Positions 24,368 to 59,859 of a stretch of 64,000 bases of DNA are shown here, piece by piece. This stretch comes from Chlorops oryzae (taxonomy: Eukaryota; Arthropoda; Insecta; Diptera; Chloropidae), in the NCBI GenBank assembly GCA_020466095.1, contig CM035807.1:49451293-49515292 (forward strand), in the 5' to 3' direction. The notes beneath the pieces are model-generated. The model made no database searches, was not told the DNA's origin, and saw nothing but the letters and a program-made list of their open reading frames with translations. Both the position numbers and the translations under genes were made by a program. Position 1 is the stretch's first letter; every line of letters begins with the position of its first letter.

Positions 24368-24417
<50 letters not shown>

Positions 24418-25117
24418 ATACAGTTATCTTATCGAAGGAGTTGAGCTATCTTGACAAAATTTTGTATGCGTGCTCACAAGGACATGAGTAAGACTAAGTT
24501 CGAGAATGGACCCGATCGGACCATTTTTAGGGGTACCTCCAGTACTAGGGTCTGTTACGAAAATCACAAAAACTGCTCTAAAATCGGAGTTTTTCAAGAT
24601 ATTTTGATGAAATTTGGCATTTGAACATATTTTAGGCCAATTAATGTGATTTACAAAAATCAGAAAAATGGGCGTGGCAGAAGGGCGTTTTTCGAAAATT
24701 GTCTCCTACTCCCGAAACGCCTATGGGACTTGAACGAAAATTGGCACTTATATGTACTTCCTTTGTTACCATAAACATCCTGCCCAAAAATTTTCTGGAT
24801 TGGTTCATTATTAAGGGTACCTCCAGTACTAGGGTCTGTCACAAAAATCCGAAAACTGCCCCAAAATCTGACTTTCCAAATATTTCAATGAAACTTAGAA
24901 TTTGCGCGTATATTTAAGCCTCCGATTAGAATTCCGAAAAATTGGAAAAGTGGGCGTGGCAAAGGGGCGGTTTGCATAAAGAAATTTAAAAAAATGCGGT
25001 ATATGGGGCCCCTATGGCCTTAAACAACTCCTGATATTAAAAATTATTTGAATATGTGTGTCTGTGTCGGGTATTCTATTGTCAGGCTTGCCTGACTATA
25101 ACACCCTTACTTGTTTT
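24226..25117 (+). mobile_element. Small dispersed element with CCCGACAC hairpin start
   Basis: It starts with the hairpin CCCGACACA/TGTGTCGAGGG and the run GGTATATTGCGTTTGTTGGG. A CTGT microsatellite follows (24366-24420), then GGGCGTGGC motifs, and the end is GTCAGGCTTGCCTGAC plus TATAACACCCTTACTTG. Related copies lie at 55242-55702 and 50440-51830 (same orientation), and the tail alone at 49977-50115 and 20422 (reverse). It has no protein-coding capacity. Its ends suggest a Helitron-derived or other hairpin-ended family. It sits between pol and the 3' LTR of the gypsy element. Confidence 0.7.
24366..24420 (+). repeat. (GTCT)n microsatellite
   Basis: About thirteen uninterrupted tetranucleotide units lie inside the small dispersed element. 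Its copy at 55376-55405 has only a few units. Confidence 0.95.
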
Positions 25118-28420: not shown

Positions 28421-29982
28421 TATCATTTTTAGCTTGTCCACACTGAAATATAATACTATAAATGTATCATCTGATCGACATCCCTCATCTATGGTTAAAG
28501 AATTTGTTGAACTGCCAAAGTTCTTTTCTTTTGGGTCTTTGAGCAGCCTTTTCTTCTTATTTGACTCTGACTTACTAAATTTCCTATTTAAATGTAATTC
28601 TATTTTTTTTCTTTCTAAAACAACCAAACCCTTTGAATACGACTCTTGTAGACTAGTACACAAAATAATCAACATACTTAATAGTATGATCCATCCTTTG
28701 GTGAAAAATTGCTTTACGCATGAATCACTAAAATATGATATTTCATAAACATCTCTTGGATAGGTTACTCAACTGCTTGCTCAGAAAAGGTAACCTTCTT
28801 ATTTTTTTCATTTTGTTTTCTAAAGAAACATATAGGCTTGCTTAGCCAAACGTATGTTTTTTCATTCTCTTTCATTTGCTCACTGCTACAAAGTGGCTGA
28901 CTTTTGTTTATTTTAATAGTCGAGTCTTCGACTTCAATTCTATTTATATCCAGTTCCAATAGCGACTGTGACTGACAAGATTAGTTTGATTTTTCCTCTG
29001 TGCTACTTTTCATATTTTTAAATTCTTTTTCCTTTAGTTCAATTTTCTGCACATTGCCGCCATCGGGTACTGGAATAGGCCTTAATTTTACTAATCTATT
29101 ATCGGTTTTCCGGTCTACTGGCCTTGACCGGACCGCGTATAGTTTCCCTGACTCTGAGGAATTGCTGACGGACAATTTGGTGAAATATGCCCAAACTGCT
29201 GACATTTGTAGCACTGTCTATTATCAACTCAAAGAGCCCCTTGACCACTTTTGGGTACATTTTGACGGTCGTTAAACCTGCCTTGCCCACTATTGTCGTA
29301 CGTTTTAGTGTTTCGGTTTTGTGTTTGATCGCAATTCTCTCTACTAGGATTCGATGCTGGAAAATTGACTTCATACTGCAAAATTTGTTAGCATAGAAAT
29401 GTCCTGATTTTTGGCAAAAACTACAAATGCTATCCTCTTTGAGCAAATCTTCTACTAAATTGATTTCGTTTACTTTGCATCCTATTCTTGACTGGATTCT
29501 TTCGACAAAGTATACTAACTGACCAATGGAATCGTTTTCCCTTCCGGCTAACATTTGCTCTAATGATCGATCTCGCAATCCTTTAATAAATGCATTGACC
29601 CCAAGATCCTTAAAACATACCTCCATGTTATCTAATCCATAGGTTTCGTTTACGAATTCATTTGCTTCTTTTAATAATTCCTCTATTCTGCTACCAAAAA
29701 GGAACACTGGCTCATTTGAGCCTTGCCTAAAGTTGTCTAAATCTGCCCTTATTTGGTCTAAAGTCCTTGCTTTAGCATAATTTTGTTTTATAAGCTCGCA
29801 AAATTCTTCTATTGCCGAAAATTTCTTCTCCCCAACCCGCTTATGCGCCTTTCCAAATAATCTCAGCTTTATGCATTCTATAGCGAGCTCCGTGTCCCCA
29901 GGTGAGACTTCTTTCTTCAACAATTGACGCCCTTGTATAAATTTATCCACTTCTATTTTAAGCTCTGGACACGATGTACATA
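28421..29982 (-). pseudogene. Gypsy gag, C-terminal part (copy 1)
   Basis: The long frame from 29980 reads CTSCPELKIEVDKFIQGRQL, then a helical capsid-like stretch (NDSIGQLV..VERIQSRIG), then CSFCQKSGHFYANKFC. A second, canonical zinc knuckle CYKCQQFGHISPNC lies in another frame near 29190-29235, so a frameshift separates the two. The region after it (to about 28430) is Lys/Glu-rich linker leading to protease. Gag forms the particle and the knuckles bind RNA. The ATG at 30004 is not native: it lies in the inserted element's TIR. Copy 2 (44220-45178) is very similar. Confidence 0.88.
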
Positions 29983-30529
29983 CAAGTGTCTTCAATGAGA
30001 ACATTAGTCAGCGAAATGAAAAAGATAGTGGACAATAGACTGTTTCTTATTTTGAAAAATTTGATCGATTTCAAACCGCCGGGCGGAAAATGTTTCCATT
30101 TGGCATAAAACTGAATGGTTTCAAATTTGGCGCCGATCGGAGGTGGTTTGATGGGCGCGTTAGGGCTCTGAAATATGAAAAAGAAATTTAACAGATCGAA
30201 AAATGGGTATGGTATAAAAAAATTAAATTTTCGATTTAAATGCCGAAGACCACAATGTTTGCCCAAATTTTTAAGACATTAATTATTAAAATCCGTTAAC
30301 GTTATCTATTCTTAATTTTACAATTAAAACGCAAAAAAATTGTACTACCTTATATGCAACAGTTTGTTAAATACGCAGAAAACCGATAAGTGGCAACGCT
30401 GATGAAACCAACAAAACAGCTGTGCGCATTGAAATTAATAACAAAGGCGTGCGCAGGAATTTGATCAGGGTAATGAGAAATTTGCAACTGTGTTAAATCC
30501 TGCATTTAGAGTTTTAAATTTATGTATAT

Positions 30530-32250: not shown

Positions 32251-33207
32251 TAAACATAAAATAATCATTTTATACAAAGATTCATCTCTTATTTTTATAA
32301 AAAAAAACTTTTTACGAGAAATATTGTATTGAGGAAAATAAGTCTTTTGCCGTGTAACAATGCAATCTAGTCTAGTGAAAAGATGTTGACAGTTTCGTCA
32401 GCGCTGCCACTTGTCTGTTTTATGCGTATTTTACCATTTGTTGCATATAAAGTAATAAGAAATTTTTTTTCGTTTTAATTATAAAATTATGAACAGATAA
32501 CGTTAACGGATTTTAATGATTATAGTCTCCAAAATTTTGGTATACTTTTTGGTCTTCGGCACCAAAATCGAAAATTAAATTTTTTGATACCATACCCATT
32601 TTGCGACCTGTTAAAAGGAGGAATCCAAAATTCAGTTTAACAAAAATGGTAGTAATTTTTACAGATAATTAAAACATAACAAAGAGTTATTAAATATCCT
32701 TCATACAAGACTCGTTTGAAGGCTAATTTTGTATATTTTTCGAAAATACATAGCAAATATGTTAATTCTTTTTCCGGCGGCAGCCAAGGGCTTCCAAGCG
32801 GATGTATCTTTTAAAACCCTCAAAATTTTGACTTTAAGACGTCCCAGGCCGGCCCAATATAAACCGATTTTGTTGTTTTATGTCTTAAAAGAAAGGTGAA
32901 TCTATTCTCTACAAAGTCAAATTTCTAGACCGTTTCCCGCAGAATCCAAATCAAAAAAAAATAATCATAAGCCACGGATGGCCACACTAATTCCCATATA
33001 AATTTTTTTTCATATTTCAGAGCCCTAGCGCGCCCATCAAATCACCTCCGATCGGCGCCAAATTTGAAACCAGTCAGTTTTATGCCAAATGGAAACATTT
33101 TCCGCCCGGCGGTTTGAAATCGATCAAAATCTTCAAATTAAGAAACAGTCGAATGTCCACTATCTTTTTCATTTCGCTGACTAATGTTCTCATTGAAGAC
33201 ACTTGTA

Positions 33208-34226
33208 TGTGGCTCGGACGACTGTATTCTCTGACTGCGATGGACTCATTTACTTTTGGAATGTTACCGAAGTGTGGAACTCTCTCTTGTGGACTGTTAT
33301 CTCTCAAACTATTGTCATTTCTTTGGTTAGCACCAAATTGAAAGAATTGCTCTAAATTAGCTCTCGCGGATGAAAAATTTGAATCTGAGTTGGTATGTTT
33401 GTTCTGCATCATACCAGTTTTTGGTCTTAGCTTATGTGATTGACCTGCTGTGGGTGGAGGCGGGGGTGGCGGTATTAGTGTGGGTGTTGGCTGTGGTGCC
33501 AACGAAGGACTTAATGAATTTTCCTGTGAATATTCTATTTGAATTGGGGTTAGTTTTGAGCTTTCGATACCAGCTTCTGATAGTTCTTTTGATAATGGTG
33601 TTGTGTTACTGTTCGCTTCGTTATTTACTGTTGATTCGTTAATGTTAGACATTTGAGGACGACCAATGTTACTTTTTTCGTGATTGGCACAATGTAATCT
33701 CTCCTTCAACTGTTCTATTTCTGCTTTTTGTTCAGAGATCGTGTGTCTATTTTTTTCAAATAAACGCTAAAATTTTCTTTTAATAAAAGTTCTCTTAGTC
33801 TGTCGTTTTCTATTTTTAGTTCTTCCAAGTGTGGTACACTATGTACCACAGAAAAAAGGCGCGATCGAAAGGACTACCGACAACTTAAGTCGGAAGAAAT
33901 TATATTTTTAGAAAATATCAATTTCGATCTCCATCTTATTTTTGTTAAAATTTACAATAAAGAAAACAATTTTTGAATTTGAAATCGAGCTTCTTAGATG
34001 AATATAAAAATAATAATTCGAAGTGAATCCTCCACACAAGGATGTGTCTGAATACGCTAATTCGTCCTTCAATTTCTTGTTCTGCGATTTCAACAATTCA
34101 TTGCTGTGATTTTTCTAATTCTTTTTCAAAAGCTTTACTCTTTTTATCACTTGCGTTTTCTCTTATATGTTCAAGTACTATGTCGAATTTCTCTTCTTGA
34201 GTGTTACCTTCTATTTCACTGCGAAC
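33208..34226 (-). pseudogene. Gypsy gag, N-terminal part (copy 1)
   Basis: On the minus strand a Lys/Glu/Leu-rich coiled coil (LKSQNKKLKDELAYSDTS near 34090; KAEIEHLKERL-like near 33700) precedes a Pro-rich linker with a run of seven or more prolines (33450-33475). A QN-rich segment (NLEQFFQFGANQRNDNS) then leads to EYSRPSH, where the TA-site element enters. The coiled-coil part is interrupted by a 207-bp solo LTR (33830-34036). The frame beyond RPSH in the right arm of the inserted element is not gag. Gag with an N-terminal coiled coil and polyproline is unusual but present in both copies. Confidence 0.75.
33830..34036. mobile_element. Very short solo LTR or TRIM-like element (207 bp)
   Basis: It starts TGTGGTACAC and ends TCCTCCACA, with CAAG on both sides (33826-33829, 34037-34040). 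The second gypsy copy has the empty site (about 49110). The TG...CA termini, the 4-bp duplication and an AATAAAG signal near 33955 fit an LTR. No internal domain is present. Confidence 0.75.
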
Positions 34227-34228
34227 TA

Positions 34229-35520
34229 ACAGGTTGGCTGATAAGTCCCCGGTCTAACAAAGAAAAACACTTTTTTTTGTCAAAATTCGTTTTTATTATT
34301 CAACATAGTTCCCTTCAAGAGCGATACAACGATTATAACGACCTTCCAATTTTTTGATACCATTTTGGTAGTACTCCTTCGGTTTTGCCTCAAAATAGGC
34401 CTCAGTTTCGGCGATCACCTCCTCATTGCAGCCAAATTTTTTCCCTGCGAGCATCCTTTTGAGGTCTGAGAACAAGAAAAAGTCGCTGGGGGCCAGATCT
34501 GGAGAATACGGTGGGTGGGAAAGCAATTCGAAGCCTAATTCATGAATTTTTGCCATCGTTCTCAATGACTTGTGGCACGGTGCGTTGTCTTGGTGGAACA
34601 ACACTTTTTTCTTCTTCATATGGGGCCGTTTTGCCGCGATTTCGACCTTCAAACGCTCCAATAACGACATATAATAGTCACTGTTGATGGTTTTCCCTTC
34701 TCAAGATAATCGATAAAAATTATTCCATGCCCATCCCAAAAAACAGAGGCCATTACTTTGCCAGCGGACTTTTGAGTCTTTCCACGCTTCGGAGACGGTT
34801 CACCGATCGCTGTCCACTCAGCCGACTGTCGATTGGACTCAGGAGTGTAGTGATAGAGCCATGTTTCATCCATTGTCACATATCGAAACAAAAACTCGGG
34901 TGTATTGCGAGTTAACAGCTGAAAACACCGCTCAGAATCATCAACACGTTGTTGTTTTTGGTCAAATGTGAGCTCGCGCGGCACCCATTTTGCACAGAGC
35001 TTTTTCATATCCAAATATTGATGAATGATATGACCAACACGTTCCTTTGATATCTTTAAGGCCTCTGCTATCTCGATCAACTTCATTTTACGGTCATTCA
35101 GAATCATTTTGTGAATTTTTTTGATGTTTTCGTCGGTAACCACCTCTTTCGGGCGTCCACTGCGTTCACCGTCCTCCGTGCTCATTTCACCACGCTTGAA
35201 TTTTGCTTACCAATCAATTATTGTTGATTTTCCTGGGGCAGAGTCCGGAAACTCATTATCAAGCCAAGTTTTTGCTTCCACTGTATTTTTTCCCTTCAGA
35301 AAACAGTATTTTATCAAAACACGAAATTCCTTTTTTCCATTTTTTTTCACAATAACAAAAGTTGCTTCACAAAAGACGCTCTATCTCACAAACTAATTGA
35401 CTTACAGACGTCAGATTTTGACACGAATCATTTGAAGGTTGCCACTAAATAAAAATAATATGTATTTAATACTAGCGACGCCATCTATGTGTCAGACCGG
35501 GGACTTATCAGCCAACCTGT
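34229..35520 (-). mobile_element. Himar1-like mariner, inactivated copy
   Basis: Inverted repeats starting ACAGGTTGGCTGATAAGTCC are flanked by TA (34227-34228, 35521-35522); the length is 1292 bp. It lies in the leader/gag start of the gypsy element, and the second gypsy copy has the empty site. It differs from the copy at 42233-43525 by few substitutions, so both are young. Confidence 0.95.
34296..35341 (-). pseudogene. Himar1-like mariner transposase, frameshifted
   Basis: This is the same protein as at 42412-43458 and is very close in sequence. It begins near 35341, has a TAT-to-TAA stop in IIDW*AKFKR near 35207, and a one-base deletion in an A run near 34695 (after EKG), after which the frame continues to the stop at 34296. 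The DD34D residues are all present (YVTMDETW, FHQDNAPCH, LAPSDFF). Two lesions make it non-functional as a full protein. Confidence 0.95.
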
Positions 35521-35522
35521 TA

Positions 35523-36895: not shown

Positions 36896-38658
36896 TTCTA
36901 GAAACTTCATCCTTTTGTGGGTGCTAGGGATTTCTGGGGCAGTATCTGAGGGTTATGGGTGAAATCTGACTTTAGATTCGTGCTCGGCACCCCAAAAAAG
37001 GTCGGTACTTCATCTTTCTGTATCAGGACCTTTATTTTTTTAGTTGACTGTGTAATCAGTACTTTTGGTAAAATTAAGTTTTGAGTACTTTTACTTAACT
37101 CCTAACTTACTTCACTCTTCCTAAAATATCATTCTTTGATGTCAAAAGAAGAAAAAAATTTATCATGGTGTAATTAAGATTAAAAATGATTTTTTAAAAG
37201 AAATTTTGTTAAAAATAAACTATAGTGGATTTTAGGCTTTATACTATAAAATAAAAAGTTATATTTTATTAAATTTGTAATATAAGAAACTATATTACAT
37301 TAATAAATTTAAAGTGGTTTTGAACCACTGTGAAGAGATGTGAAAAAAACCTTTGTGGGTTTTTTGCAAGAAATTTTGAAATTTACACGCTTTCAGTGAA
37401 CGGCATAATATTATATTAAACATCAATTTTGTTGATATTGTTTTAAAACCGGTGATAGCCGAGTATATTATGTTTAAGGTCATCTTGTAACACCACAAAT
37501 CATGCCCATCGATCACTCGGTGATGAACTTTTTGTAGAATAATTTAATATGCTGTTGATTTATTTTTCTTCTTTTGTGTGAGTTGGCTGTATTATAGCCG
37601 GGCTAGACCGCCCATAGAGCTCTGACTTATATATATTAAAGAAAAAGAAAAAAAAACGAATAAGTGCTAAAAAACAAACAGTTTCATTCTACCAACAATA
37701 ATACTCACATACATACCTAATTTCAGCTAATTTGTTTACATTTTATACAACAATTTTTTCCCACAAAAATTGAAAATTTTTCTTTGAATAGAAAAAACTG
37801 TTACTTGAAGATATTCTTCGTTATTAGAAATTTTTGATATAAAACAATTAATAACAAAATTTTTTATATAAAGAGAAAAGATTGAAACATTTTCGACGCG
37901 CAATTTTCTTGATATATCATGTTCAACTTTAGAATTCAATTTCTCAACAAATGTTTTTTTTTTTTGTGATATACGAGGAGTTATCTCCGGGACGACGATT
38001 TGTCGACTAATTGTAATAACCATTTTTATATTGTTTTCCGATGAGTGATGAACGTTGAGCTCTAACACACCAAGATTGCAAGTTTCATAGCTGAAATTCC
38101 GAACTTAATGGCATGTCATTCCTAAATAGCTCTGGGTAGTCAGCGTTTCTGTCCAAATATCCGCAGTTAACGATGCTGTTATGATATCGTTAGATACAAA
38201 TATATTAATTTAGTAGTATTTAGTTTAGTACGTAAAAGTGCAACCCTGTAACATATGAAATAATAAAAAAGGCAGTCGTACGCCAGACACAGCCAATGAC
38301 ACAACAGATGCGTATTTTATTTGTGAAAGCTTATTTCTTATAACATTTGAAAGAACTTCGTATTTTTCTTCCATAAGCTTCGTGACCTTGTTTCGATTAG
38401 GTACCTTGTATAGAGGAACAGCACATTTGACAAAAGCATTCAAACCTTTTTTGTTAACGATGTCAAATGGCATGCATAAACAGAAATTTTTGAGTGAGCT
38501 CGATGTGTTTCTTTCCACCATCTACAACAAAAAATTAAGCGAAAATATTTGTATGATTGAAGAAAGGCGTATTAAATTTTCTGGCCGATACGCCTTGTTT
38601 TAAACTTTGAGGATAGAAATCAATAAAAAGAAAAAATACAGTATTAAGTATTATATAT
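36896..38658. other. Unassigned AT-rich DNA
   Basis: The first 120 bp resemble 20690-20820 and continue the small element interrupted by the gypsy insertion. From 37020 to 38658 no domain, TIR pair or RNA gene was recognised. The short frames here have no recognisable motifs. Confidence 0.45.
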
Positions 38659-42230: not shown

Positions 42231-42232
42231 TA

Positions 42233-43525
42233 ACAGGTTGGCTTATAAGTCCCCGGTCTGACACATAGATGGCGTCGCTAGTATTAAATGCATATAATTT
42301 TTATATAGTGGCAACCTTCAAATGATTCGTGTCAAAATTTGACGTCTGTAAGTCAATTAGTTTGTGAGATAGAGCGTCTTTTGTGAAGCAACTTTTGTTA
42401 TTGTGAAAAAAATGGAAAAAAAGGAATTTCGTGTTTTGATAAAATACTGTTTTCTGAAGGGAAAAAATACAGTGGAAGCAAAAACTTGGCTTGATAATGA
42501 GTTTCCGGACTCTGCCCCAGGAAAATCAACAATAATTGATTGGTATGCAAAATTCAAGCGTGGTGAAATGAGCACGGAGAACGGTGAACGCAGTGGACGC
42601 CCGAAAGAGGTGGTTACCGACGAAAACATCAAAAAAATTCACAAAATGATTTTGAATGACCGTAAAATGAAGTTGATCGAGATAGCAGAGGCCTTAAAGA
42701 TATCAAAGGAACGTGTTGGTCATATCATTCATCAATATTTGGATATGAAAAAGCTCTGTGCAAAATGGGTGCCGCGCGAGCTCACATTTGACCAAAAACA
42801 ACAACGTGTTGATGATTCTGAGCGGTGTTTGCAGCTGTTAACTCGCAATACACCCGAGTTTTTGCGTCGATATGTGACAATGGATAAAACATGGCTCTAT
42901 CACTACACTCCTGAGTCCAATCGACAGTCGGCTGAGTGGACAGCAATCGGTGAACCGTCTCCGAAGCGTGGAAAGACTCAAAAGTCCGCTGGCAAAGTAA
43001 TGGCCTCTGTTTTTTGGGATGGGCATGGAATAATTTTTATCGATTATCTTGAGAAGGGAAAAACCATCAACAGTGATTATTATATGTCGTTATTGGAGCG
43101 TTTGAAGGTCGAAATCGCGGCAAAACGGCCCCATATGAAGAAGAAAAAAGTGTTGTTCCACCAAGACAACGCACCGTGCCACAAGTCATTGAGAACGATG
43201 GCAAAAATTCATGAATTAGGCTTCGAATTGCTTCCCCACCCACCGTATTCTCCAGATCTGGCCCCCAGCGACTTTTTCTTGTTCTCAGACCTCAAAAGGA
43301 TGCTCGCAGGGAAAAAATTTGGCTGCAATGAAGAGGTGATCGCCGAAACTGAGGCCTATTTTGAGGCAAAACCGAAGGAGTACTACCAAAATGGTATCAA
43401 AAAATTGGAAGGTCGTTATAATCGTTGTATCGCTCTTGAAGGGAACTATGTTGAATAATAAAAACGAATTTTGACAAAAAAATGTGTTTTTCTTTGTTAG
43501 ACCGGGGACTTATCAGCCAACCTGT
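42233..43525 (+). mobile_element. Himar1-like mariner with intact transposase
   Basis: Inverted repeats starting ACAGGTTGGCT are flanked by TA (42231-42232, 43526-43527). The left TIR has TTATAAG where the right has TGATAAG, one mismatch. Length 1293 bp. It lies in a small dispersed element whose end is at about 43803, just left of the second gypsy fragment. Confidence 0.96.
42412..43458 (+). CDS. Mariner transposase, Himar1-like (irritans type), intact
   Basis: It is a cut-and-paste DDE transposase that binds the TIRs and inserts at TA. The protein has 348 residues, the usual Himar1 length, starting at ATG 42412 (MEKKEFRVLIKYCFLKGKNT). HTH regions lie at about 1-110, WVPRELTFDQK at 119, and the catalytic DD34D residues at Asp158 (YVTMDKTW), Asp252 (FHQDNAPCH) and Asp287 (LAPSDFF), with 34 residues between the last two. 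The residue after the first catalytic Asp is Lys, while the other copy in this window has Glu there; this may reduce activity. No stop or frameshift. Sequence similarity to Himar1 of horn fly is by recognition, not alignment. Confidence 0.96.
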   Translation: MEKKEFRVLIKYCFLKGKNTVEAKTWLDNEFPDSAPGKSTIIDWYAKFKRGEMSTENGERSGRPKEVVTDENIKKIHKMILNDRKMKLIEIAEALKISKERVGHIIHQYLDMKKLCAKWVPRELTFDQKQQRVDDSERCLQLLTRNTPEFLRRYVTMDKTWLYHYTPESNRQSAEWTAIGEPSPKRGKTQKSAGKVMASVFWDGHGIIFIDYLEKGKTINSDYYMSLLERLKVEIAAKRPHMKKKKVLFHQDNAPCHKSLRTMAKIHELGFELLPHPPYSPDLAPSDFFLFSDLKRMLAGKKFGCNEEVIAETEAYFEAKPKEYYQNGIKKLEGRYNRCIALEGNYVE

Positions 43526-43803
43526 TATACATCCCAGCTTATTGAAATTTGGTGTGTGTATAGCTACTATGTAGACTTAAGCTTTCGCTGAAAAAAAATT
43601 GCGACATCGCTATATTTATGGCGTAGAAGCTTCAAATTCGCAACATAGGTTGACCAAGGCGAATGAAAGGTGTAGGAAAAAAATTTATATGGCCCTCCCA
43701 CTGCCACGCCCATAAATAGAGAAGCAAAACATAGTGCGCTCATAACGTCGGGACGCTGGGTATTTCAAAGTCGGGCTTGACCGACTTTAGCTTTCTTACT
43801 TGT
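43526..43803 (+). mobile_element. End of small dispersed element with hairpin
   Basis: After the Himar copy the host sequence runs to AAAGTCGGGCTTGACCGACTTT, a hairpin, followed by AGCTTTCTTACTTGTTTTT. The layout (hairpin then a short tail ending ACTTG) parallels the other small dispersed family but with different hairpin sequence. Helitron-derived identity is inferred. Confidence 0.55.
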
Positions 43804-44219
43804 TTTTCTTTCTAAAACAACCAAACACGTTGAAAACGACTCTTGTAGACTAGTACACAAAATAATCAACATACTTAATAGTATGATCCATCCTTTGGTG
43901 AAAAATTGCTTTACGCATGAATCACTAAAATATGATATTTCATAAACATTTCTTGGATAGGTAACTCAACTGCTTGCTCAGATAAGGTAACCTTCTTATT
44001 TTTTTCATTTTTGTTTTCTAAAGGAACATATAGGCTTGTTTAGCCAAACGTATGTTTTTTCATTCTCTTTCATTTGCTCACTGCTACAAAGTGGCTGACT
44101 TTTGTTTATTTTAATAGTCGAGTCTTCGACTTTAATTCTATTTATATCCAGTTCCAATAGCGACTGTGACTGACAAGATTAGTTTGATTTTTCCTCTGTG
44201 CTACTTTTCATATTTTTAA

Positions 44220-45177
44220 ATTCTTTTTCCTTTAGTTCAATTTTCTGCACATTGCCGCCATCGGGTACTGGAATAGGCCTTAATTTTACTAATCTATTAT
44301 CGGTTTTCCGGTCTACTGGCCTTGACCGGACCGCGTATAGTTTCCCTGACTGAGGAATTGCTGACGGACAATTTGGTGAAATATGCCCAAACTGCTTACA
44401 TTTGTAGCACTGTCTATTATCAACTCAAAGAGCCCCTTGACCACTTTTGGGTACATTTTGACGGTCGTTAAACCTGCCTTGCCCACTATTGTCGTACGTT
44501 TTAGTGTTTCGGTTTTGTGTTTGATCGCAATTCTCTCTACTAGGATTCGATGCTGGAAAATTGACTTCATACTGCAAAATTTGTTAGCATAGAAATGTCC
44601 TGATTTTTGGCAAAAACTACAAATGCTATCCTCTTTGAGCAAATCTTCTACTAAATTGATTTCGTTTACTTTGCATCCTATTCTTGACTGGATTCTTTCG
44701 ACAAAGTCTACTAACTGACCAATGGAATCGTTTTCCCTTCCGGCTAACATTTGCTCTAATGATCGATCTCGCAATCCTTTAATAAATGCATTGACCCCAA
44801 GATCCTTAAAAAATACCTCCATGTTATCTAATCCATAGGTTTCTTTTACGAATTCATTTGCTTCTTTTAATAATTCCTCTATTCTGCTACCAAAAAGGGA
44901 ACACTGGCTCATTTGAGCCTTGCCTAATGTTGTCTAAATCTGCCTTTATTTGGTCTAAAGTCCTTGCTTTAGCATAATTTTGTTTTATAAGCTCGCAAAA
45001 TTCGTCTATTGACGAAAATTTCTTCTCCCCAACTCGCTTATGCGACTTTCCGAATAATCTAAGCTTTATGCATTCTATAGCGAGCTCCGTGTCCCCAGGT
45101 GAGGCTTCTCTCTTCAACAATTGACGCCCTTGTATAAATTTATCCACTTCTATTTTAAGCTCTGGACACGATGTACA
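44220..45177 (-). pseudogene. Gypsy gag, C-terminal part (copy 2)
   Basis: Nearly the same protein as 28990-29980, with the knuckle CSFCQKSGHFYANKFC and a second knuckle near 44385-44425 where one Cys-region base differs (CYKCKQFGH). A one-base insertion in a G run near 44897 frameshifts it relative to copy 1. The two copies differ at only a small share of positions, so they separated recently or were duplicated together. Confidence 0.85.
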
Positions 45178-45179
45178 TA

Positions 45180-47605
45180 CAAGTGTCTTCAATGAGAACA
45201 TTAGTCAGCGAAATGAAAAAGATAGTGGACATTCGACTGTTTCTTATTTTGAAAAATTTGATCGATTTCAAACCGCCGGGCGGAAAATGTTTCCATTTGG
45301 CATAAAACTGACTGGTTTCAAATTTGGCGCCGATCGGAGGTGGTTTGATGGGCGCGCTAGGGCTCTGAAATATGAAAAAAAATTTTAACAGATCGAAAAA
45401 TGGGTATGGTATAAAAAAATTAAATTTTCGATTTAAATGCCGAAGACCACAATGTTTGACCAAATTTTTAAGACATTAATTATTAAAATCCGTTAACGTT
45501 ATCTATTCTCAATTTTACAATTAAAACGCAAAAAAATTGTACTACCTTATATGCAACAATTTGTTAAATACGCAGAAAACCGATAAGTGGCAACGCTGAT
45601 GAAACCAACAAAACAGCTGTGTGCATTGAAATTAATAACAAAGGCGTTCGCAGGAATTTGATCAGGGTAATGAGAAATTTGCAACTGTGTTAAATCCTGC
45701 ATTTAGAGTTTTAAAGGGTCTGACGGGTTGTGCCACCCTGAAAGGAATTTTTAAATTTTGTTGATTTTTCGATAGGTTTCATCTAAAAATACTGTGGAGA
45801 CCACTTTTTAGATTTTAATTTTGAATAGTCCTTGAGATATCCTTGAAAGTCCTTTTTTATTAAGGCTTTTTTCAAAATTTTATATCTCAACAACCAATTA
45901 AGATAGAGAGACGATCTAAACAGATTCTGTTAGACAATAAAACAAGGAAGCTAAAAAAAATTTGTTTTAATTTTACACTGAGAAATTTTTTTTCACAAAA
46001 CTAAAAAGAAAAGTTTAAGTATTTATTTCAGTGTATTCCAATTTTGACGCAACTTTTATATTTTTTTGAAAAATAGCTCCTAGTATTTACTTTAATTTAA
46101 AATAAACAAGTATTCCAATCGGATGGCGGAACAGTGTCATATTTACAAAAATGCAAGGGTACATTAATACTCTCAGTGTTGATCCCATACAAAAGGCATC
46201 ACTCATACGACATGTATGCGGATTATCGAATATATAATTAACGTCCTACATGTTTTTTGAAAATTGAAATTGAAAAAAGCCTTAATAAAAAAGGACTTTC
46301 AAGGATATCTCAAGGACTATTCAAAATTAAAATCTAAAAAGTGGTCTCCACAGTATTTTTAGATTAAACCTATCGAAAAATCAACAAAATTTAAAAATTC
46401 CTTTCAGGGTGGCACATGCCTTTGCTCAACCGGGAAGACCCTTTATGTATATGTCGAGCACGGGTAAAAATGTGATGGAAAAACTAATTTGTGAGACAAT
46501 ACAAAAACTTAAATTTTATCGAAATTTGCACAATCAGTCTTTATTCAGAGGTAGGAAACTGCCCTTAGTGGTCCCTCTTGTGGACGCCATATCAATCCAT
46601 ATGACGCAATCTGTTTACGTTTTGCTGTCGTCGTAAATATGAGTGAGATTAAACATAAAATAATCATTTTATACAAAGATTCATCTCTTATTTTTATAAA
46701 AAAAAACTTTTTACGAGAAATATTGTATTGAGGAAAATAAGTCTTTTGCCGTGTAACAATGCAATCTAGTCTAGTGAAAAGATGTTGACAGTTTCGTCAG
46801 CGCTGCCACTTGTCTGTTTTATGCGTATTTTACCATTTGTTGCATATAAAGTAATAAGAAATTTTTTTTCGTTTTAATTATAAAATTATGAACAGATAAC
46901 GTTAACGGATTTTAATGATTATAGTCTCAAAAATTTCGGTATACTTTGTGGTCTTCGGCACCAAAATCGAAAATTTAATTTTTTTGATACCATACCCATT
47001 TTTCGACCTGTTAAAAGGAGGAATCCAAAATTCAGTTTTATAAAAATGGTAGTAATTTTTACAGATAATTAAAACATAACAAAGAGTTATTAAATATCCT
47101 TCATACTGGACTCTTTTGAAGGCTAATTTTGTATATTTTTCGAAAATGCATAGCAAATATGTTAATTCTTTTTCCGGCGGCAGCCAAGGGCTTCCAAGCG
47201 GATGTATCTTTTAAAACCCTCAAAATTTTGACTTTAAGACGTCCCAGGCCGGCCCAATATAAACCGATTTTGTTGTTTTATGTCTTAAAAGAAAGGTGAA
47301 TCTATTCTCTACAAAGTCAAATTTCTAGACCGTTTCCCGCAGAATCCAAATCAAAAAAAAATAATCATAAGCCACGGATGGCCACACTAATTCCCATATA
47401 AATTTTTTTTCATATTTCAGAGCCCTAGCGCGCCCATCAAATCACCTCCGATCGGCTCCAAATTTGAAACCAGTCAGTTTTATGCCAAATGGAAACATTT
47501 TCCGCCCGGCGGCTTGAAATCGATCAAAATTTTCAAAATAAGAAACAGTCGAATGTCCACTATCTTTTTCATTTCGCTGACTAATGTTCTCATTGAAGAC
47601 ACTTG
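45180..47605. mobile_element. TA-site long-TIR element in gag (copy 2)
   Basis: Same termini (CAAGTGTCTTCAATG), same TA flanks (45178-45179, 47606-47607) and same gag codon as in copy 1. Without its foldback insertion it is about 1.70 kb, equal to the copy-1 core. The arms are therefore part of the gypsy lineage that made both copies, or both lie in one duplicated segment. Confidence 0.85.
45716..46441. mobile_element. Foldback element, 726 bp
   Basis: Inverted arms of about 165-180 bp (GGGTCTGACGGGTT... at the left, ...GGGAAGACCC at the right) enclose about 380 bp. Comparison with copy 1 gives the empty site. No clear duplication; the target is TTTAAATTTA-like. A related, diverged sequence lies at about 60290-60740. 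No coding frame. Confidence 0.8.
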
Positions 47606-47866
47606 TATGTGGCTCGGACGACTGTATTCTCTGACTGCGATGGACTCATTTACTTTTGGAATGTTACCGAAGTGTGGAACTCTCACTTGTGGACTGTTAT
47701 CTCTCAAACTATTGTCATTTCTTTGGTTAGCACCAAATTGAAAGAAATGTTCTAAATTAGCTCTGGCGGCTGAAAAATTTGAATCTGAGTTGGTATGTTT
47801 GTTCTGCATCATATCAGTTTTCGGTCTTAACTGATGTGATTGACCTGCTGAGGGTGGAGGCGGGGG

Positions 47867-48733
47867 TTTTTTTTTTTTTTTATGTGGGAGGGGGAATCTT
47901 CTAAAAGATACTATCAAAGTTGTTACCTTGATAGTATGCTCGATTTGTTTTCCCTGCTACCACCCCCTTTTGGGTTTACGCCCGTTTCATGCATCAGCAT
48001 TTTTCGGACTGGCAAGAAAATACACCTACGTACTAAACCTTAACCTCCCTTAGTGTCGCTTCCCACATCGTGCTCTACGGTACCGTCAGATTGAGGCATT
48101 ACTTCGTAGAGCTGGGATTAGAGCATTGGCTCTTAATTAGCTATCATTCTATATATTGTCTCTTCTTTCATCACGCCGTAGCTGCAACATTATTGCAGTG
48201 ATGACGAAGCCAATTTTATTCCACCTTTCTTCAGAGCTCACCATCCTTCTGACAATGGCCTCGCATGTTACTGGCTCGTTTAATGCCATTATCAGTTCTT
48301 GTCGTGCTTCCATAAACCGCCCGCACTCCACAAACACATGCTCCACGCTTTCGACCGCGTTTTCACAGTATAAACAATACTGATGCTCCACTATTCTGTA
48401 CTTGTAGAGGTACTCCCTACAAGGCCCATGTCCTGTGAGGAACTGTGAGACGTAGAAGTTTGGTTCGCCATATTTCCTCTTAAGCCAGCTATTGATGTCT
48501 GGGATCAGCAGGTGTGTCCAACGACCTTTTGTTCCAGTATCCCATCTAAACTGCAACTGCTCAATCAAACTCCTTTCGACCTCAGCCAAGCTTCTCATGT
48601 CGAAACTACTTTGTTGCTTCAACCTATATACTGCTGCCAATCTTTTTTCCCTCAGGTCAACTGGAAGCCTTCCCGCTATAACGTCGGCCGACAAGTCCGA
48701 TACCGTTCGATATGCACAGCACACTCTCAGTGA
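47867..48733 (-). mobile_element. 5'-truncated R1-like non-LTR retrotransposon
   Basis: A run of T at 47867-47880 (poly-A on the minus strand) marks the 3' end; the other end stops inside the coding region. An 11-bp duplication GGAGGCGGGGG flanks it (47856-47866, 48734-48744). These are the marks of target-primed reverse transcription with 5' truncation. A near-identical copy lies at about 59172-59859. Confidence 0.93.
48149..48724 (-). pseudogene. R1-like ORF2, C-terminal end
   Basis: The frame reads YRTVSDLSADVIAGRLP, then an Arg/Lys-rich helix, LIPDINSWLKRKYG, FYVSQFLTGHGPCREYLYKY and the Cys/His motif CLYCENAVESVEHVFVEC. This post-RT layout, with LTGHG...YL and CxxC...H...C, is that of R1-clade and related non-LTR polyproteins. 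It is the last 190 residues or so; the RT and endonuclease were lost through 5' truncation. The frame is free of stops, so the insertion is recent. Confidence 0.88.
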
Positions 48734-49976: not shown

Positions 49977-50115
49977 ACAAGTAAGGGTGTTATAGTCAGG
50001 CGAGCCTGGCAATAGAATACCCGACACAGACACACATGTTCAAATAATTTTTAATATCAAGAGTTTTTTAAGGCCATAAGGAGCCCCATATACCGACTTT
50101 TGTTACATAAAATGC
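49977..50115 (-). mobile_element. Tail fragment of the small dispersed element
   Basis: It starts AACAAGTAAGGGTGTTATA with hairpin GTCAGGCGAGCCTGGC and runs through ATACCCGACACAGACAC, the reverse complement of 24970-25117. Confidence 0.8.
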
Positions 50116-50873
50116 TCCGCATTTGCGGAGAAGTTATTTCAACTGATGGACAAGATCAATGGCTTTTTGTTTTATTTAAATAAATAATATTAGCCTTATC
50201 GATGAAGTATTCAAAAATTTATAGATCATTGAATTTTGATTAAATATGAATCATTTTTAAACTCACAGATTCCCTACTTTCGATACAGAACTTTGAGAGG
50301 CCATATAACTAAAAGTTGTTCGAGTTAAAATAAAATATTTTGGGATTTTTTAATATAGGGTATTGACTTATAAATGTCATAAAAAGTTTTGTTTATTTTG
50401 ACATTTGCATTTTTTTATTTTTCTCGCCGCTCGTTACACTGTGCGACAAACTCTGTGTCGAGGGTATATAAAGTTTGTGTGGTTTGTGTAACACCATCAA
50501 CTAATCGAGGTAGACCATACAAAATGTGTAAAGAAATTATCATCGTCACCAGGAGATTCGATTTAGCCCTCTCTATCTGTCCGTCTATCTGTATAAGAAA
50601 ACTTATAGAAAGAGTTCAGCTGTTTTAACGAAATTTGGTGTGCGTGTGCACGGGGGGTCTGTTATGAAAATCACAAAAACTGCTCTAGTCCCTGAATTTT
50701 ACGAGATATTGTGATGATATTTAATATTTGAACATACTTAAAGGCAATCGATGTAGTTTCAAAAAAAACTTTTAAAGTGGGCGTGGCCCAAGGGGGGGAG
50801 GGGTTTTCAAAAACTTTCTGTGACACTTGAAATTGGGCTCGAACGAAAGTTGGCATATATGCTTCCTCTATAG

Positions 50874-51830: not shown

Positions 51831-52412
51831 TTGTCCAAAAAAATAAAATTGAAATTTTAACTTTTTATGTTTTGTTCAATATATAATGGACAACAAATAA
51901 CTTACCCTGCAAGCCGGATACGCGTATTAAACAAAACACTGTCGCAGAAATAACTGTCCTTTTGTTTTTTTTTATTGCAAAAAAACAATGATGCTTTTTT
52001 TAAAATTCTTTCAGTTTATTATTAAGTGAACATTACAAAATAAATAAAAAGTTTAATTACACTGAAAAAAATACACTTAAAAAAAATTATACACTTTTTG
52101 ATTAAGGTCCTTCATTAGGTTTTTTACCGACCTTTCGTTCACCTTAGTGTATGCCCGACGCCATTTATGTCAAAATACTTCGATGTTATTCGCAGTTTGT
52201 TTGGTTTTCTTAAGGTTCCTTTTCATTAAAGCCCAATATTTTTCGATTGGACAAAGTTCGGGGCAATTCGGAGGATTTGCTTCTCTTGGTACCACAGTGA
52301 CATTATTGGCTTGGTACCAATCCATCGTTTTTTGGGCGTAGTGAGATGTTGCTAGGTCAGGCCATAATAGTACTGAACCTTGGTGTTCACGTATAAAAGG
52401 CAGCAAACGCCG
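51831..52412 (-). pseudogene. Tc1-like transposase, C-terminal part (left of Transib)
   Basis: On the minus strand the frame from the Transib border reads RLLPFIREHQGSVLLWPDLA, then HYAQKTMDWYQANNV, and ANPPNCPELCPIEKYWALMK to a stop at 52170. WPDLA holds the second catalytic Asp and PIEKYW the third residue, Glu, with 37 residues between (DD37E-like). Together with 56047-56698 it is one gene. Beyond the stop, TA at about 52053 followed by CACTGAAAAAAATACAC may be the element end. The part from 51831 to 52050 has no recognisable coding. Confidence 0.88.
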
Positions 52413-52450
52413 CACAGTGGTTCAGAATTTCAGTGGGTCGGCCAAAAATG
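52413..52450 (+). repeat. Transib left end: heptamer, 22-bp spacer, nonamer-like
   Basis: CACAGTG (52413-52419) is identical to the consensus heptamer of V(D)J recombination signals. After 22 bp comes CCAAAAATG (52442-52450), matching ACAAAAACC at 6 of 9 positions. Confidence 0.9.
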
Positions 52451-53225
52451 CCCAATGTTGATGTCCAAATATGTAAAATCGTGTTATGCTAGTTGATTAA
52501 GAATAGTTCCAAAGTAAGATTCCCAAAATATTAGTTTGATTGAACAATAATTGTGGGCGTGGTTGATAAACAAACAATGCACTTTTTGATTTCCTTAAAA
52601 CTGTGTTCAAAATGTAATATTTGGACTATTTTAGTACCTCACATCTTACACAAAAATGGCTGTAGAAACTCGTTGTTTTTTTTAAATAAATATATGACTC
52701 ATGTCGTTTGATAATATTTATTAAAAAATATTATCCAGTAAATAAAAATATTTTTATAATATTTTTTTTGAAGCTCCAATTTTACACGATTTTTTTATTT
52801 TGCAAGAGTATAACTTTTTTTCTACAAAAAGCGTCAAAACAAAACTACATGTATTTGAAAGCTAAAACAATTTTCTTTTCAAAAATGTATTCTTTATTGC
52901 CAACAACTGCCAACATCATTGTAAATCTTTCCATTATACAAAAAAAGAGGTGGCATTCCGCATGCACGAATATAAAAATTTGACAGTGACATATAACGTT
53001 GGCATATGTGCTAGCGAATATTATGTCAAATTGGCATATTTTTTGTCATATTTCTGGTTGCCCTTAAAATTTTCTGTAAATTTTTTTGTTAAACTGCAAT
53101 ATAGGGTTTTCTTCAATTCTCAACAAGTTTATATTGTTTAGTATTATATATTAGTTTTCAAAAAATTAAACAGTAAGTCTTTTTCTGTGCTTGGTTCTTC
53201 TTCTTTCGCTGCGAAATATTTAAAA

Positions 53226-55183
53226 ATGGACGTTTTGAGCTATGAAAACTTGTCGAAGATATTCTTTAATAGGAAAAATGATGAGGACGTATTCGATTTC
53301 GTAAAATCTAAAGCTGTTTATAAAGATATTTCAAAAGAACTAATTATCAGCAAGACGAAAAGTTTTTTAATAAACCTTAAAAGAAGATACAAAAAAGTTG
53401 GATGCAGTAAGTCATTATTTTTTCGAAATAACTCCGTTTGGATTAAAGGTTGTTTAAAATTTGAAAAAATTGAGAAACGGGAAATTGAAACAGTAACAAG
53501 AGGCAGACCTTTGAAACAATTAAATGACTGTAGTCAAAGATCCCAAAGGCGAAAACTGCAAGCTATTAATGATACAGTAGGCAAATCAAATGTGCAGAGT
53601 GCATTTTTACACCAACTGAGATCAAAAAAGTCATTTCTTAAAGCTAAGCTTGTTGAAGATGTTGTGGTGACTGATAACACAGAAATGGACTCCTCTGAAA
53701 CTCTACCATTTTCAGGTCAAAAATATAGTCCCGAAGAAGCACTTGCACTTTTTTTAGATTTAAAACTTACAAAGCACCAATATATGCTATTAAGACTTTC
53801 TGCTTTAAATAAAGGATTGAATATATAATATATCCCCCCTATGCGGAAGTACTACAAGCCAAAAAAGCGTGCTATCCTGAGAAGATTCACATAACACAAA
53901 AATCCGCTGAAATAAATTTGCAATCGCTTTTAGACCATACTGTCGAAAGACTCATTTTGAGTTTCGAAAATGACATTTTGCAAAATATGACCAACAGTAG
54001 TGAAGTTGTACTAATTGGCAAATGGGGATGTGATGGGTCGTCTGGGCAGCGAGAATATAAACAAGCTTTTAAAGAAGAAGTAAGCGATTCAAATCTTTTC
54101 ATGACTTCTTTCGTTCCACTACGCTTTCGAGTTTTTAAAGAAAATACTTTTGTCGATATCTGGAAAAATGTTACTCCGTCTTCATCCAAATACTGCAGAC
54201 CAATAAAATTTGAATTTCACAAGGAGAGTTCTGAATTTGTGCAAAATGAAGTTTCAGATATTACAGCTCAAATTTCCAATCTTAGTCCAATGAAGTATAA
54301 CCGAAATAGTTATTGTTTTGATGTTAAATATGAACTTTTGTTGACGATGGTTGATGGAAAAGTTTGTCAGGCCATAACTAAAACAAAATCAACTTCAACA
54401 TGCATCGTTTGCCAGCAACCCATTAGCCAGCTAAATAAACTTCCCGCTCCAGAAAGAGTTGATAAAACTGCCTTCGAATTCGGTCTTGCTCCTCTTCATG
54501 CTAGAATTCGGTTGATGGAATTTGTATTGAAAATTGCATATGATTTAGATTTTGGCGAAAACGCAACCGTAAGAAACAAACCCGAAAATAAGCAAAAAAG
54601 AGCAGAGGCGAAAGAACGAATTCAAAAAGGGTTTAAAAAAATCGGTTTAATTATTGATAAACCCAAACAAGGTGATGGGAACTCAAACGATGGAAATACG
54701 GCCCGAAGATTTTTTTCCAATCCCGAACTTGCTGCCAGTATAACTGGTGTAAATGTCGACTTGATTCAAAAATTTAAAACACTCACAGAAGTTCTTTGTT
54801 GCAACCAAATGATTGATGTTAATAAGTATGAAATCTTTGCCAAAGAAACAATAGACGTATACAATATAAATTATTACTGGAGGAAAATCACTCCAACAGT
54901 TCACAAAATTTTATACCATGGTGCAGACATAATTAAGTACTTCGAACAAATCTATATACCCATTGGAGATTTATCGGAAGAAGCCCAAGAAAAAAGGAAT
55001 AAGGACTACAAATACTACAGGGAGCATAATACTAGAAAGATGACCAGAGAGAGTACCAACGAAGATTTACTTCATATTATGCTATGCTCTTCTGATCCCT
55101 TCTTATCACATATGAGGTACAAGTGGAAAGCACCCGATAATGAATTAAGCGAAGAAGTTAAAGATTTACTAATTGCTACTTAG
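53226..55183 (+). pseudogene. Transib/RAG1-like transposase, one frameshift
   Basis: It is a DDE transposase expected to nick and hairpin at the CACAGTG ends. The first part (from ATG 53226, MDVLSYENLSKIFF) has a basic segment with RGRPLKQLND near residue 90. A two-base slip in the TATATAATATAT run at 53821-53832 shifts the frame; the second part then runs without a stop to 55183. Motifs: KWGCDGSSGQREYKQ (RAG1 has NCDGSSD, catalytic Asp), KVCQAIT then TCIVC, APLHARIRLMEF, DGNTARRFF (RAG1 GNYARRLM), and IGDLSEEAQEKRNKDYKYYR (RAG1 ASEGNESGNKLFRRFR, catalytic Glu). Where RAG1 has LHCDIGNA the sequence is LHARIRLM, so the second Asp is not at the expected place. Total near 650 codons, usual for Transib. 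Superfamily supported independently by the ends. Confidence 0.85.
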
Positions 55184-55241
55184 TTTCCGTTTCATCCGAT
55201 TTCATATTGAAAACATAAAAACCGTTGTAAATTATACATTT

Positions 55242-55702
55242 TTATACCCGACACATTCTGTGTCGAGGGTATATTGCGTTTGTTGGGTTGTGTGTAACAC
55301 CCAGAACCAGTCGAGATGGACCATAAAAATGTATATAAAAATGATCAGCGTCACCAGGAGATTCGATTTAGCCATGTCCGTCCGTATGTCTGTCCGTCTG
55401 TCTGTATACAGTTTTCTTATCGAAGGAGTTGAGCTATCTTGACAATTTGGTATGCGTGCTCACGGGGACATGAGTAAGAACAAGTTCGAGAATGGACCTG
55501 ATCGGACCATTTTTAGGGGTACCTCAGTTACTAGGGTCTGTTACGAAAATCACAAAACTGCTTTAAAATCGAATTTCTTCAAAAGTGGGCGTAGCAAATG
55601 GGCGGTTTTCATAAAGAAAATTAACAAAAGTCGATATATGGGGCCCCTTATGTCCTTAAACGCCTCTTGATATTAAAAATTATTTCATGTGTGTCTGAGT
55701 TT
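55242..55702 (+). mobile_element. Small dispersed element inside Transib
   Basis: It begins with the hairpin CCCGACACATTCTGTGTCGAGGG and follows 24230-25060 closely, with an internal deletion and a shorter GTCT run. It ends near TGTGTGTCTGAG without the GTCAGGC hairpin. It lies after the transposase stop. Confidence 0.8.
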
Positions 55703-56008
55703 TTCAGTTTTAAATTACCAGTATCCCAAAACAATAAAATAAGTGCAGAATATTCTGATTAAATTATTTAGTGCGAATTTTATTTGAATTTGGTAGTTCA
55801 AACTCTAAAACAGAACATAATGTGAGAAGAAAATATTTTATAAAACATGAAAATTCCCTTGAAAACAACATTTTTCAAGTTTACCGCTAAATTAAACTAC
55901 TTTTTAATTTTTCAATCAAAAAAAAATTTCGTTCCGTTACTCTATATTCTTTTGTCTCTCAAATGGCGAAAAAATTATATGATTGTCTCTATTGGTTCAA
56001 AAGTTACA

Positions 56009-56046
56009 GATTTTTGACCGACCTAACCTCAGTCTGAACCACTGTG
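56009..56046 (-). repeat. Transib right end: heptamer, 22-bp spacer, nonamer-like
   Basis: On the minus strand CACAGTG (56046-56040) is followed by a 22-bp spacer and TCAAAAATC (56017-56009), matching ACAAAAACC at 7 of 9. Spacer length equals that of the left end. Confidence 0.9.
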
Positions 56047-56698
56047 CGCCGGTCCAGACACTCTCTGATGTAAATTTCGGTGTTGATTGTGCGATCCGTC
56101 ACAAATTCCTTACTTCGAAGGCCACATTTGCAAATGGCCTGTCACACCATGTATTTCTTTGGAAATTTGGTATGTTTTTCGGTGGTAAATTTAGAGGATG
56201 CTCCACCCCTTCTAACTGCAGTATAATATCCGTATCCAGGTAACTGCTTGAAATCCGCAGGTAATCGCGATACAGTTTTCGAGCCCTCCTCTTCGCTTCG
56301 GCGTCCATTTTTTCTGACCTATCAGGTACTTTTTGTACTTTATAGCTCCTTAGGTTGTAAAATTTTTTAATCCGTTGAACACTTGATTTCGATGTTCCCG
56401 CTTTTGCTGCCATATCACGAACCGAAGTGCCTGGATTCTGAGTAAACAGTCGCTTAACGTTCTGGGCCACCGCTTGGTTCGCTGGACCACTTTTTCTCCC
56501 TGATCCTGGTGTTTTTGATAAACGGGTAAGCTGTCTGTATCGTTCTATGGTCCTACCGACAGTTTGTTCGCACACGCCAACTTCCTTAGCGATCTTTTTG
56601 TACGTGGTGTTTGGATTTTCCAGGTGTTTGTAAATAATTGCATTCCGCTTTTCCGACATAATATTCTGCTGGGTACTTGTTTCCACTATCACACTCAC
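56047..56698 (-). pseudogene. Tc1-like transposase, N-terminal part (right of Transib)
   Basis: The frame starts MSVIVETSTQQNIMSEKRNA; the second Met (MSEKRN, about 56659) is the likelier start. A paired-type HTH follows (TYKKIAKEVGVCEQTVGRTI), then a GRKSGP hook, a second HTH (TSVRDMAAKAGTSKSSVQRI) and KVPDRSEKMDAEAKRRARKL. The MDDETY region with the first catalytic Asp is missing. After it, MV*QAICKCGLRSKEFVTDR continues in another frame to IYIRECLDR at the Transib border. The gene has an internal deletion, a frameshift and a TGG-to-TGA stop, so it was probably already dead or died later; the order cannot be told. Confidence 0.88.
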
Positions 56699-56726
56699 GA
56701 AATATCCCAGCAGAATATTATGTCGG
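56653..56726. repeat. Perfect 21-bp inverted repeat around the Tc1-like start
   Basis: CCGACATAATATTCTGCTGG (56653-56672, plus one G) is mirrored exactly at 56706-56726 with a loop of 32 bp. The right-hand arm in the minus direction covers the MSEKR start codon region. It may be a partial inverted duplication rather than the element TIR. Confidence 0.85.
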
Positions 56727-56912
56727 CGGTGAACAAGTCCGCGCGTCTTTCAGAGCGGACGCTTCGGTGAAATGCTCCGCATGACAGTGTCAGCGAGGTA
56801 GAGCGAAAAAGTCATGCCCGATTGCCATTTCCATTTTGAACTCGTCTTGATTGAATCGCATTAGCCGCTTAAATTTAAATAGGGTTTTAGCGTCAGGAGA
56901 TCACTTGGGAGA

Positions 56913-59171: not shown

Positions 59172-59859
59172 CAATCTTCTAAAAGATACTATCAAAGTTG
59201 TTACCTTGATAGTATGCACGATTTGTTTTCCCTGCTACCACCCCCTTTTGGGTTTACGCCCGTTTCATGCATCAGCATTTTTCGGACTGGCAAGAAAATA
59301 CACCTACGTACTAAACCTTAACCTCCCTTAGTGTCGCTTCCCACATCGTGCTCTACGGTACCGTCAGATTGAGGCATTACTTCGTAGAGCTGGGATTAGA
59401 GCATTGGCTCTTAATTAGCTATCATTCTATATATTGTCTCTTCTTTCATCACGCCGTAGCTGCAACATTATTGCCGTGATGACGAAGCCAATTTTATTCC
59501 ACCTTTCTTCAGAGCTCACCATCCTTCTGACAATGGCCTCGCATGTTACTGGCTCGTTTAATGCCATTATCAGTTCTTGTCGTGCTTCCATAAACCGCCC
59601 GCACTCCACAAACACATGCTCCACGCTTTCGACCGCGTTTTCACAGTATAAACAATACTGATGCTCCACTATTCTGTACTTGTAGAGGTACTCCCTACAA
59701 GGCCCATGTCCTGTGAGGAACTGTGAGACGTAGAAGTTTGGTTCGCCATATTTCCTCTTAAGCCAGCTATTGATGTCTGGGATCAGCAGGTGTGTCCAAC
59801 GACCTTTTGTTCCAGTATCCCATCTAAACTGCAACTGCTCAATCAAACTCCTTTCGACC
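59172..59859 (-). mobile_element. R1-like non-LTR copy 2, cut by the assembly gap
   Basis: From CTTCTAAAAGATACTATC onward it is almost identical to 47894-48583, differing at only a few bases. The 3' side lacks the T-run seen in the first copy. The other side ends at the gap. Confidence 0.9.
59427..59859 (-). pseudogene. R1-like ORF2 C-terminal end, copy 2
   Basis: It encodes the same FYVSQFLTGHGPCREYLYKY and CLYCENAVESVEHVFVEC segments as the copy at 48149-48724, with an open frame up to the gap. Whether it extends further into RT is hidden by the Ns. Confidence 0.85.

Follow-up and report, generated by a model that had tools for sequence, protein, structure and literature searches.

The origin of the RAG reading of heptamer and nonamer, and of the 12/23 rule, is an unsettled question. 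The 23-RSS is cut by RAG1/RAG2 together with a 12-RSS partner, and the locus described here raises the question whether a transposon with a 23-RSS-like signal at both ends stands apart from other Transibs, and whether it can serve as a natural comparison for RAG-type end recognition. The window, i.e. the whole stretch of DNA that was analysed, is 64,000 nucleotides long, and its own genome (442,144,510 bases, 442 Mb) was searched for relatives. The observation of a Transib with RSS-like ends is confirmed. The element represents a family that is new within a known kind of transposon: RSS-identical heptamers, 20–22 bp spacers and NBD-like domains have already been published for Transibs.

Borders and ends of the element

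The Transib spans positions 52413–56046 of the window (3634 bp) and lies between two copies of CGCCG, at 52408–52412 and 56047–56051 (neither assigned to a strand). It was inserted into a minus-strand relic of a Tc1-like transposase, with the 3' part at 52170–52412 and the 5' part at 56052–56749. This relic is itself frame-disrupted, its own frame being broken between the N- and C-terminal parts. When the flanks were rejoined with a single CGCCG, reconstructing the empty site, the Tc1-like reading frame ran unbroken across the site, and the Pfam DDE_3 match, which unjoined covers profile positions 80–140, extended over positions 53–140 and spanned the junction. This restored frame and match imply that the borders and the duplication are correct. 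Among facing CACAGTG pairs 300–8000 bp apart in the window, 52413/56046 is the sole pair with a duplication (0 or 1 mismatch). A second TIR-like site, at 37319–37332, has neither an A-rich block at 22 bp nor a duplication-bearing partner, and was attributed to chance.

The left end (52413–52450, plus strand) consists of the heptamer CACAGTG (52413–52419), a 22-bp spacer (52420–52441) and the nonamer-like block CCAAAAATG (52442–52450). The right end (56009–56046, minus strand) has CACAGTG at 56046–56040, a 22-bp spacer at 56039–56018 and the block TCAAAAATC at 56017–56009. The earlier note had described exactly these heptamers, spacers and A-rich blocks with CGCCG duplicated outside, and its coordinates are exact. 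The ends start with CAC and form inverted terminal repeats, as in the Transib superfamily; both heptamers are the consensus heptamer of the 23-RSS, and the spacer falls inside its range of 23 plus or minus 1 bp.

The two 38-bp ends match at 29 positions, a value reached by none of 200,000 random 38-bp pairs taken from the element (maximum 25). The similarity is distributed unevenly, with 14/14 matches at positions 1–14, 2/8 at 15–22, 6/7 at 23–29 and 7/9 at 30–38, and it ceases beyond the nonamer-like block (8/22 at positions 39–60). At fixed spacing, the blocks agree with ACAAAAACC at 6/9 positions on the left and 7/9 on the right, the respective chances, given the A+T-richness of the element, being 0.022 and 0.0039 for two ends that are not independent of each other. 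By itself the nonamer-like block is weaker evidence than the whole-end match.

A dispersed repeat is nested in the 3' non-coding part of the element (55239–55700, no strand assigned), with similar pieces at 24226–25067 and at about 50024–50687. The repeat is about 0.85 kb long and starts TATACCCGACACA...GTGTCGAGGGTATA.

Copies of the family in the genome

A search with the left end gave 89 candidates, of which 40 were scored and all 40 read (39 and the window copy). The left heptamer is CACAGTG in 39/40 and CACAATG in 1/40. Right ends were found for 22 of these copies (CACAGTG in 20, CACAATG in one, TAGAGTG in one), and the 18 without a right end in the examined stretch were not counted for right ends. 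By pattern, the left spacer is 22 bp in 35/40; the exceptions are three copies with a base change beside the block (for which the pattern says 21), one with a change within the block and one with a 23-bp spacer. Of the 22 right ends, 20 have a 22-bp spacer by pattern, as does one further end whose heptamer is altered; the remaining one (L161) has lost the block. Across the copies, the 22-bp spacer and the A-rich block are nearly as stable as the heptamer. The left flank reads CGNCG in 35/40, compared to a frequency of 0.0015 per base in the window, and 16 of the 22 copies with both ends found have the same duplication on either side.

The first left-end query contained the terminal bases, and the search was repeated with interior bases only. 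In that search (40 of 85 candidates scored) 36 places were already known, and the four new ones all carry CACAGTG, one with a 23-bp spacer. The corresponding right search (40 of 66 candidates scored) returned 18 places read earlier, all with CACAGTG, and 22 others, of which 20 were newly read. One newly read place has no end and one reads N; among the other 18, which are readable, 17 have CACAGTG, including L221, whose right end aligned one base off the search frame, and one has CAAAGTA. The start positions of L158 and L159 were manually moved by 2, and the pairs L156/L157, L158/L159, L211/L215 and L217/L219 share flanks or lie close together and are not independent. These counts bear out the conservation across copies of heptamer, spacer and nonamer-like block, which the earlier note had put forward for checking.

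Many copies are shorter, internal-deletion derivatives. Besides the window copy, both ends were found for 21 copies, 12 of which measure 1.63–1.83 kb; in the one examined closely (L152), 566 bp from the left and 350 bp from the right enclose a middle made up of parts of the dispersed repeat. Among 93 scored of 1307 candidates in a protein search, four transposase matches at 95–100% belong to the window's own family, and no intact own-family transposase was seen among them: the window copy carries the frameshift, each half of L130/L168 contains a stop, C2:37667201 has three stops, and C3:51777330 (L169) is free of stops over residues 6–432 with an N-terminal part that is incomplete in the examined stretch. 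As all four are damaged or incomplete, the derivatives were presumably moved by an unseen intact copy or by a sister transposase with nearly the same ends.

Outside this genome, sequence patterns matched 23 stretches in viral contigs and 13 in one-per-species prokaryote genomes, none of which encodes a relative. A 14-base terminal pattern matched at least 120 stretches in viral contigs; these were read as chance and not used.

The transposase and its sister families

The transposase is encoded on the plus strand in two frames. The N-terminal frame (53226–53825, 200 aa) contains an NBD-like region, with a GRP motif at residues 93–95 followed by three helices, and the start of a DDBD-like region. 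It ends in a frameshift at 53813–53828, and the remainder goes on in another frame (53813–55183, 456 aa) that comprises the DDE core. This catalytic part matches the HzTransib structures 6pqn (1.9e-92) and 6pqx (1.8e-37) with 38–40% identity, its DDE triad is kept in invariant columns, and its predicted fold has a pLDDT of 90.9. HzTransib is its closest solved relative, compared to 0.0031 for RAG1L (6b40), so that the Transib identity claimed earlier holds and the protein does not fall outside Transib/RAG1. The N-terminal part is weakly predicted to fold like the nonamer-binding domain of RAG1; the solved HzTransib chain starts after this region, the profile match beginning at position 171. 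Besides the transposase, the element contains no other frame of more than 100 aa, and among frames of that length no RAG2 partner was seen.

Judged from its reading frames, the window copy is unable to make a full transposase because of the frameshift. The possibility of a programmed frameshift was dismissed, since in 98 of 120 listed relatives one protein comprises both the catalytic core and a long N-terminal part (the others being 20 with short N-termini and 2 without the WGxDG anchor). Of those 98 proteins, 91 have GRP, five GRK or GKK, and two neither.

From 93 scored of the 1307 candidates, the protein search yielded at least 96 matches to Transib transposases, with several pieces of one copy counted separately in some cases. 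They represent many families, and many have long stop-free frames. Ten transposase loci were examined, together with pieces of further copies. One of these (L169) is of the window's own family, ends were found for five other families, and those of L171, L172, L176 and L177 (4/10 loci) were not found in the examined stretches. The GRP motif occurs in seven of the ten frames; L174 has GRK, and L169 and L176 have none.

The nearest sister, L170 (60% protein identity), has CACAGTG ends, 22/22 spacers and the duplication CGACG. Its coding DNA is 67% identical to that of the window element over the matched stretch, and its terminal 40 bp match at 39 and 37 positions, dropping further inside to 50/60 on the left and 37/60 on the right. 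Because so many terminal bases are kept at this level of coding identity, the whole 38-bp end, with heptamer, spacer and block jointly, looks constrained; L170 provides the strongest evidence for this, from one sister family and hence a single comparison. L170 has 654 codons without a stop and no ATG at the homologous start.

A second family, represented by L173 (G000:C1:113092747-113097166) and four more copies (L179–L186), has a transposase about 41% identical to that of the window. All five copies have CACAGTG at both ends, followed on the left by TCATAAATG after a 13-bp spacer and on the right by TCAATAATC after a 23-bp spacer. A second A-rich stretch at 21 bp on the left (7/9) makes the asymmetric 13/23 arrangement the better, not the sole, reading of this sequence. 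The duplications of the five copies are exact yet all different (CTCTG, CATTG, CATAG, CACTG, CAACG), and the family looks recently active. The frame of L173 runs for 715 codons without a stop and has no ATG before codon 440, suggesting that a first exon may lie upstream.

Ends were also read for three further families. L175 (38% protein identity) has CACATTG on the left and CACAGTG on the right, a GCAAAA block at 22 bp (by eye) and 23 bp, respectively, and an exact duplication in one of two copies. L178 (36%, one copy) has CACACTG at both ends, the block at 23/23 bp and the duplication CATGG. L174 (43%), the family with GRK for GRP, has CACACTG on the left, CACAGTG on the right and no A-rich block at its ends; its duplication CGCCG is exact in the second copy and not in the first. 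Beyond L170, the block is thus found at 22–23 bp on at least one end in three of four families and is absent in one. The motif derived from the window's ends is matched at 8/9 by the right end of L173 and both ends of L178, and at 7/9 by the right end of L175, always at 23 bp. In these loci the chance per position of an 8/9 match is 0.0016 and that of a 7/9 match 0.011, and with 21 spacings tried per end a single 8/9 match anywhere is an event of about 3%, so that the weight lies in the positions falling at 22–23.

Among the 12 representative ends of the six families, including the window's, eight have CACAGTG, three CACACTG and one CACATTG. The earlier note was right that both ends of the element carry the RSS consensus heptamer, and overstated how far this sets the family apart, given these counts and the published Transibs. 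It likewise recognised a Transib with RSS-like ends. It overlooked the frameshift and NBD-like region of the transposase, the repeat within the element, the internally deleted copies and the sister family with asymmetric ends.

Proposed two-part reading of the ends, and known systems

In HzTransib and RAG1, the ends are brought together by a dimer, which nicks by the heptamer, makes hairpins on the flanks and inserts the cut ends at a 5-bp target. We propose that the window element is a degenerate Transib cut-and-paste transposon of an insect-like genome, which very probably worked along the same lines. By homology, a transposase dimer would recognise two parts in each 38-bp end: the catalytic core would grip the CACAGTG heptamer and cut beside it via the nick–hairpin route, and the N-terminal GRP/three-helix domain, a likely counterpart of the RAG1 NBD, would grip the A-rich block about two helical turns inward. 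The excised element would insert at 5-bp sites, mostly CGNCG, and duplicate them, and the internal-deletion derivatives would have to be moved in trans. That the NBD-like domain may read the A-rich block is suggested by the presence of both together, by the 22–23 bp spacing in distant families and by the absence of the block in L174 and, reportedly, in HzTransib.

On a plainer explanation, the inverted repeats would be those of any Transib, with roughly the outermost 14 bases being the only ones of importance and the A-rich block a product of shared descent and of coincidence in A+T-rich DNA. The mildly unusual nonamer score taken alone, the lack of the block in L174 and the HzTransib ends, in which one account finds little if any resemblance to a nonamer (PMC8289069), are in line with it. 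It accounts poorly for window ends that have diverged at positions 15–22 (2/8) and are alike at 23–29 (6/7) and 30–38 (7/9), for L170, which retains nearly all 40 terminal bp and less inside, and for a block at 23 bp in families with 36–41% protein identity (right end of L173, both ends of L178, right end of L175), and we regard it as unlikely.

A domesticated RAG-like gene or RAGL transposon would share the RAG1-type core and the NBD-like region. RAGL/ProtoRAG elements are recognised by a RAG1L-type core with an adjoining RAG2-like gene; here the core is by far nearest to HzTransib (1.9e-92 versus 0.0031 for 6b40), no further frame above 100 aa is present in the element, the copy is frame-broken and the family is multi-copy, which leaves this explanation scarcely any probability. 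The reading as an assembly artefact or chance inverted repeat is already refuted, and its probability negligible, by the 40 scored left-end copies, the identical duplications in 16/22 copies with both ends, and the Tc1-like frame across the rejoined site.

With HzTransib (Helicoverpa zea; PDB 6pqn, 6pqx) the window family shares the DDE core, the 5-bp duplication and a single transposase gene; unlike it, the family has a predicted NBD-like region and a nonamer-like block, whereas the solved HzTransib chain is without an NBD-like region. The deduced HzTransib protein is given as 489 aa (PMC1852546). Heptamers and nonamers identical to RAG-recognised RSSs are reported for some Transib ends (PMC6941560), and symmetric spacers of 20–22 bp in a figure legend (PMC8355894, Fig. 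2). With those symmetric Transibs the family shares the heptamer, the spacer of about 22 bp, the A-rich block and the 5-bp duplication; it differs in being new and in having CACAGTG at nearly every end read. The founding paper of Kapitonov and Jurka in 2005 is said to be the original source for such symmetric elements.

Asymmetric 12/23 Transibs are described as well (Drosophila Transib5, Anopheles Transib2 and N1–N3; PMC8355894), and symmetric and asymmetric members of subgroup II, as well as NBD equivalents, are reported (PMC9435367). L173 shares such asymmetry, whereas the window family is symmetric (22/22). CGNCG, for which the flanks of the window family show a preference, has been named as a Transib site (PMC4735498); the duplications of L173 are nearer to CCANTGG, the target motif given for Drosophila hopper and transib2 (PMC3276498). 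ProtoRAG/RAGL transposons are similar in their RAG1-like core, CAC ends and 5-bp duplications, but are described as carrying RAG2L and CACTATG ends with 27/31 bp (PMC8289069). The vertebrate 23-RSS with RAG1/RAG2 is matched in the consensus heptamer, the spacer of 23 plus or minus 1 and the predicted NBD-like domain; here, in contrast, no RAG2 was seen, both ends are of one spacer class, the nonamer agrees at 6–7/9, and the locus is a transposon and not an immune locus.

The window copy alone is an ordinary, broken member of its family. The suggested use as a natural comparison for RAG-type end recognition is well founded, as the ends are RSS-like in sister families too. Within one genome there are several GRP-bearing families whose heptamers are those of a true RSS and whose ends are symmetric in some cases and asymmetric in others. 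They form a matched set with which the use of the nonamer and the preferred spacer could be tested in an enzyme that lacks RAG2, alongside a Transib of solved structure without the NBD-like region and reportedly without a nonamer (PMC8289069). Tentatively, and with somewhat less than even confidence, we suggest that two-part RAG-style reading (core for the heptamer, NBD for the nonamer about two turns off) without RAG2 may be the rule of NBD-bearing Transibs. Symmetric (22/22, 22/23, 23/23) and asymmetric (13/23, L173) forms would coexist in the genome, and families without the nonamer would have an absent or altered NBD (HzTransib; GRK for GRP in L174), a coupling drawn from six families and the HzTransib literature, too few for a test. 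If true, extant relatives would allow a study of the transition from equal ends to a 12/23-like pair.

Other repeats are present in the window. Two mariner (Mos1-like) copies, at 42231–43527 and 34227–35522, are 98.5% identical. The former contains an open 347-aa transposase (42415–43455) that is 98% identical to protein P0121, and its best-ranked named match is 65% identical (Drosophila palustris). Near-identical duplicates (98–99.7%) are found at 28598–30518 and 43793–45715, at 32251–33467 and 46650–47867, and at 47895–48581 and 59173–59859, and these duplicated stretches contain long frames.
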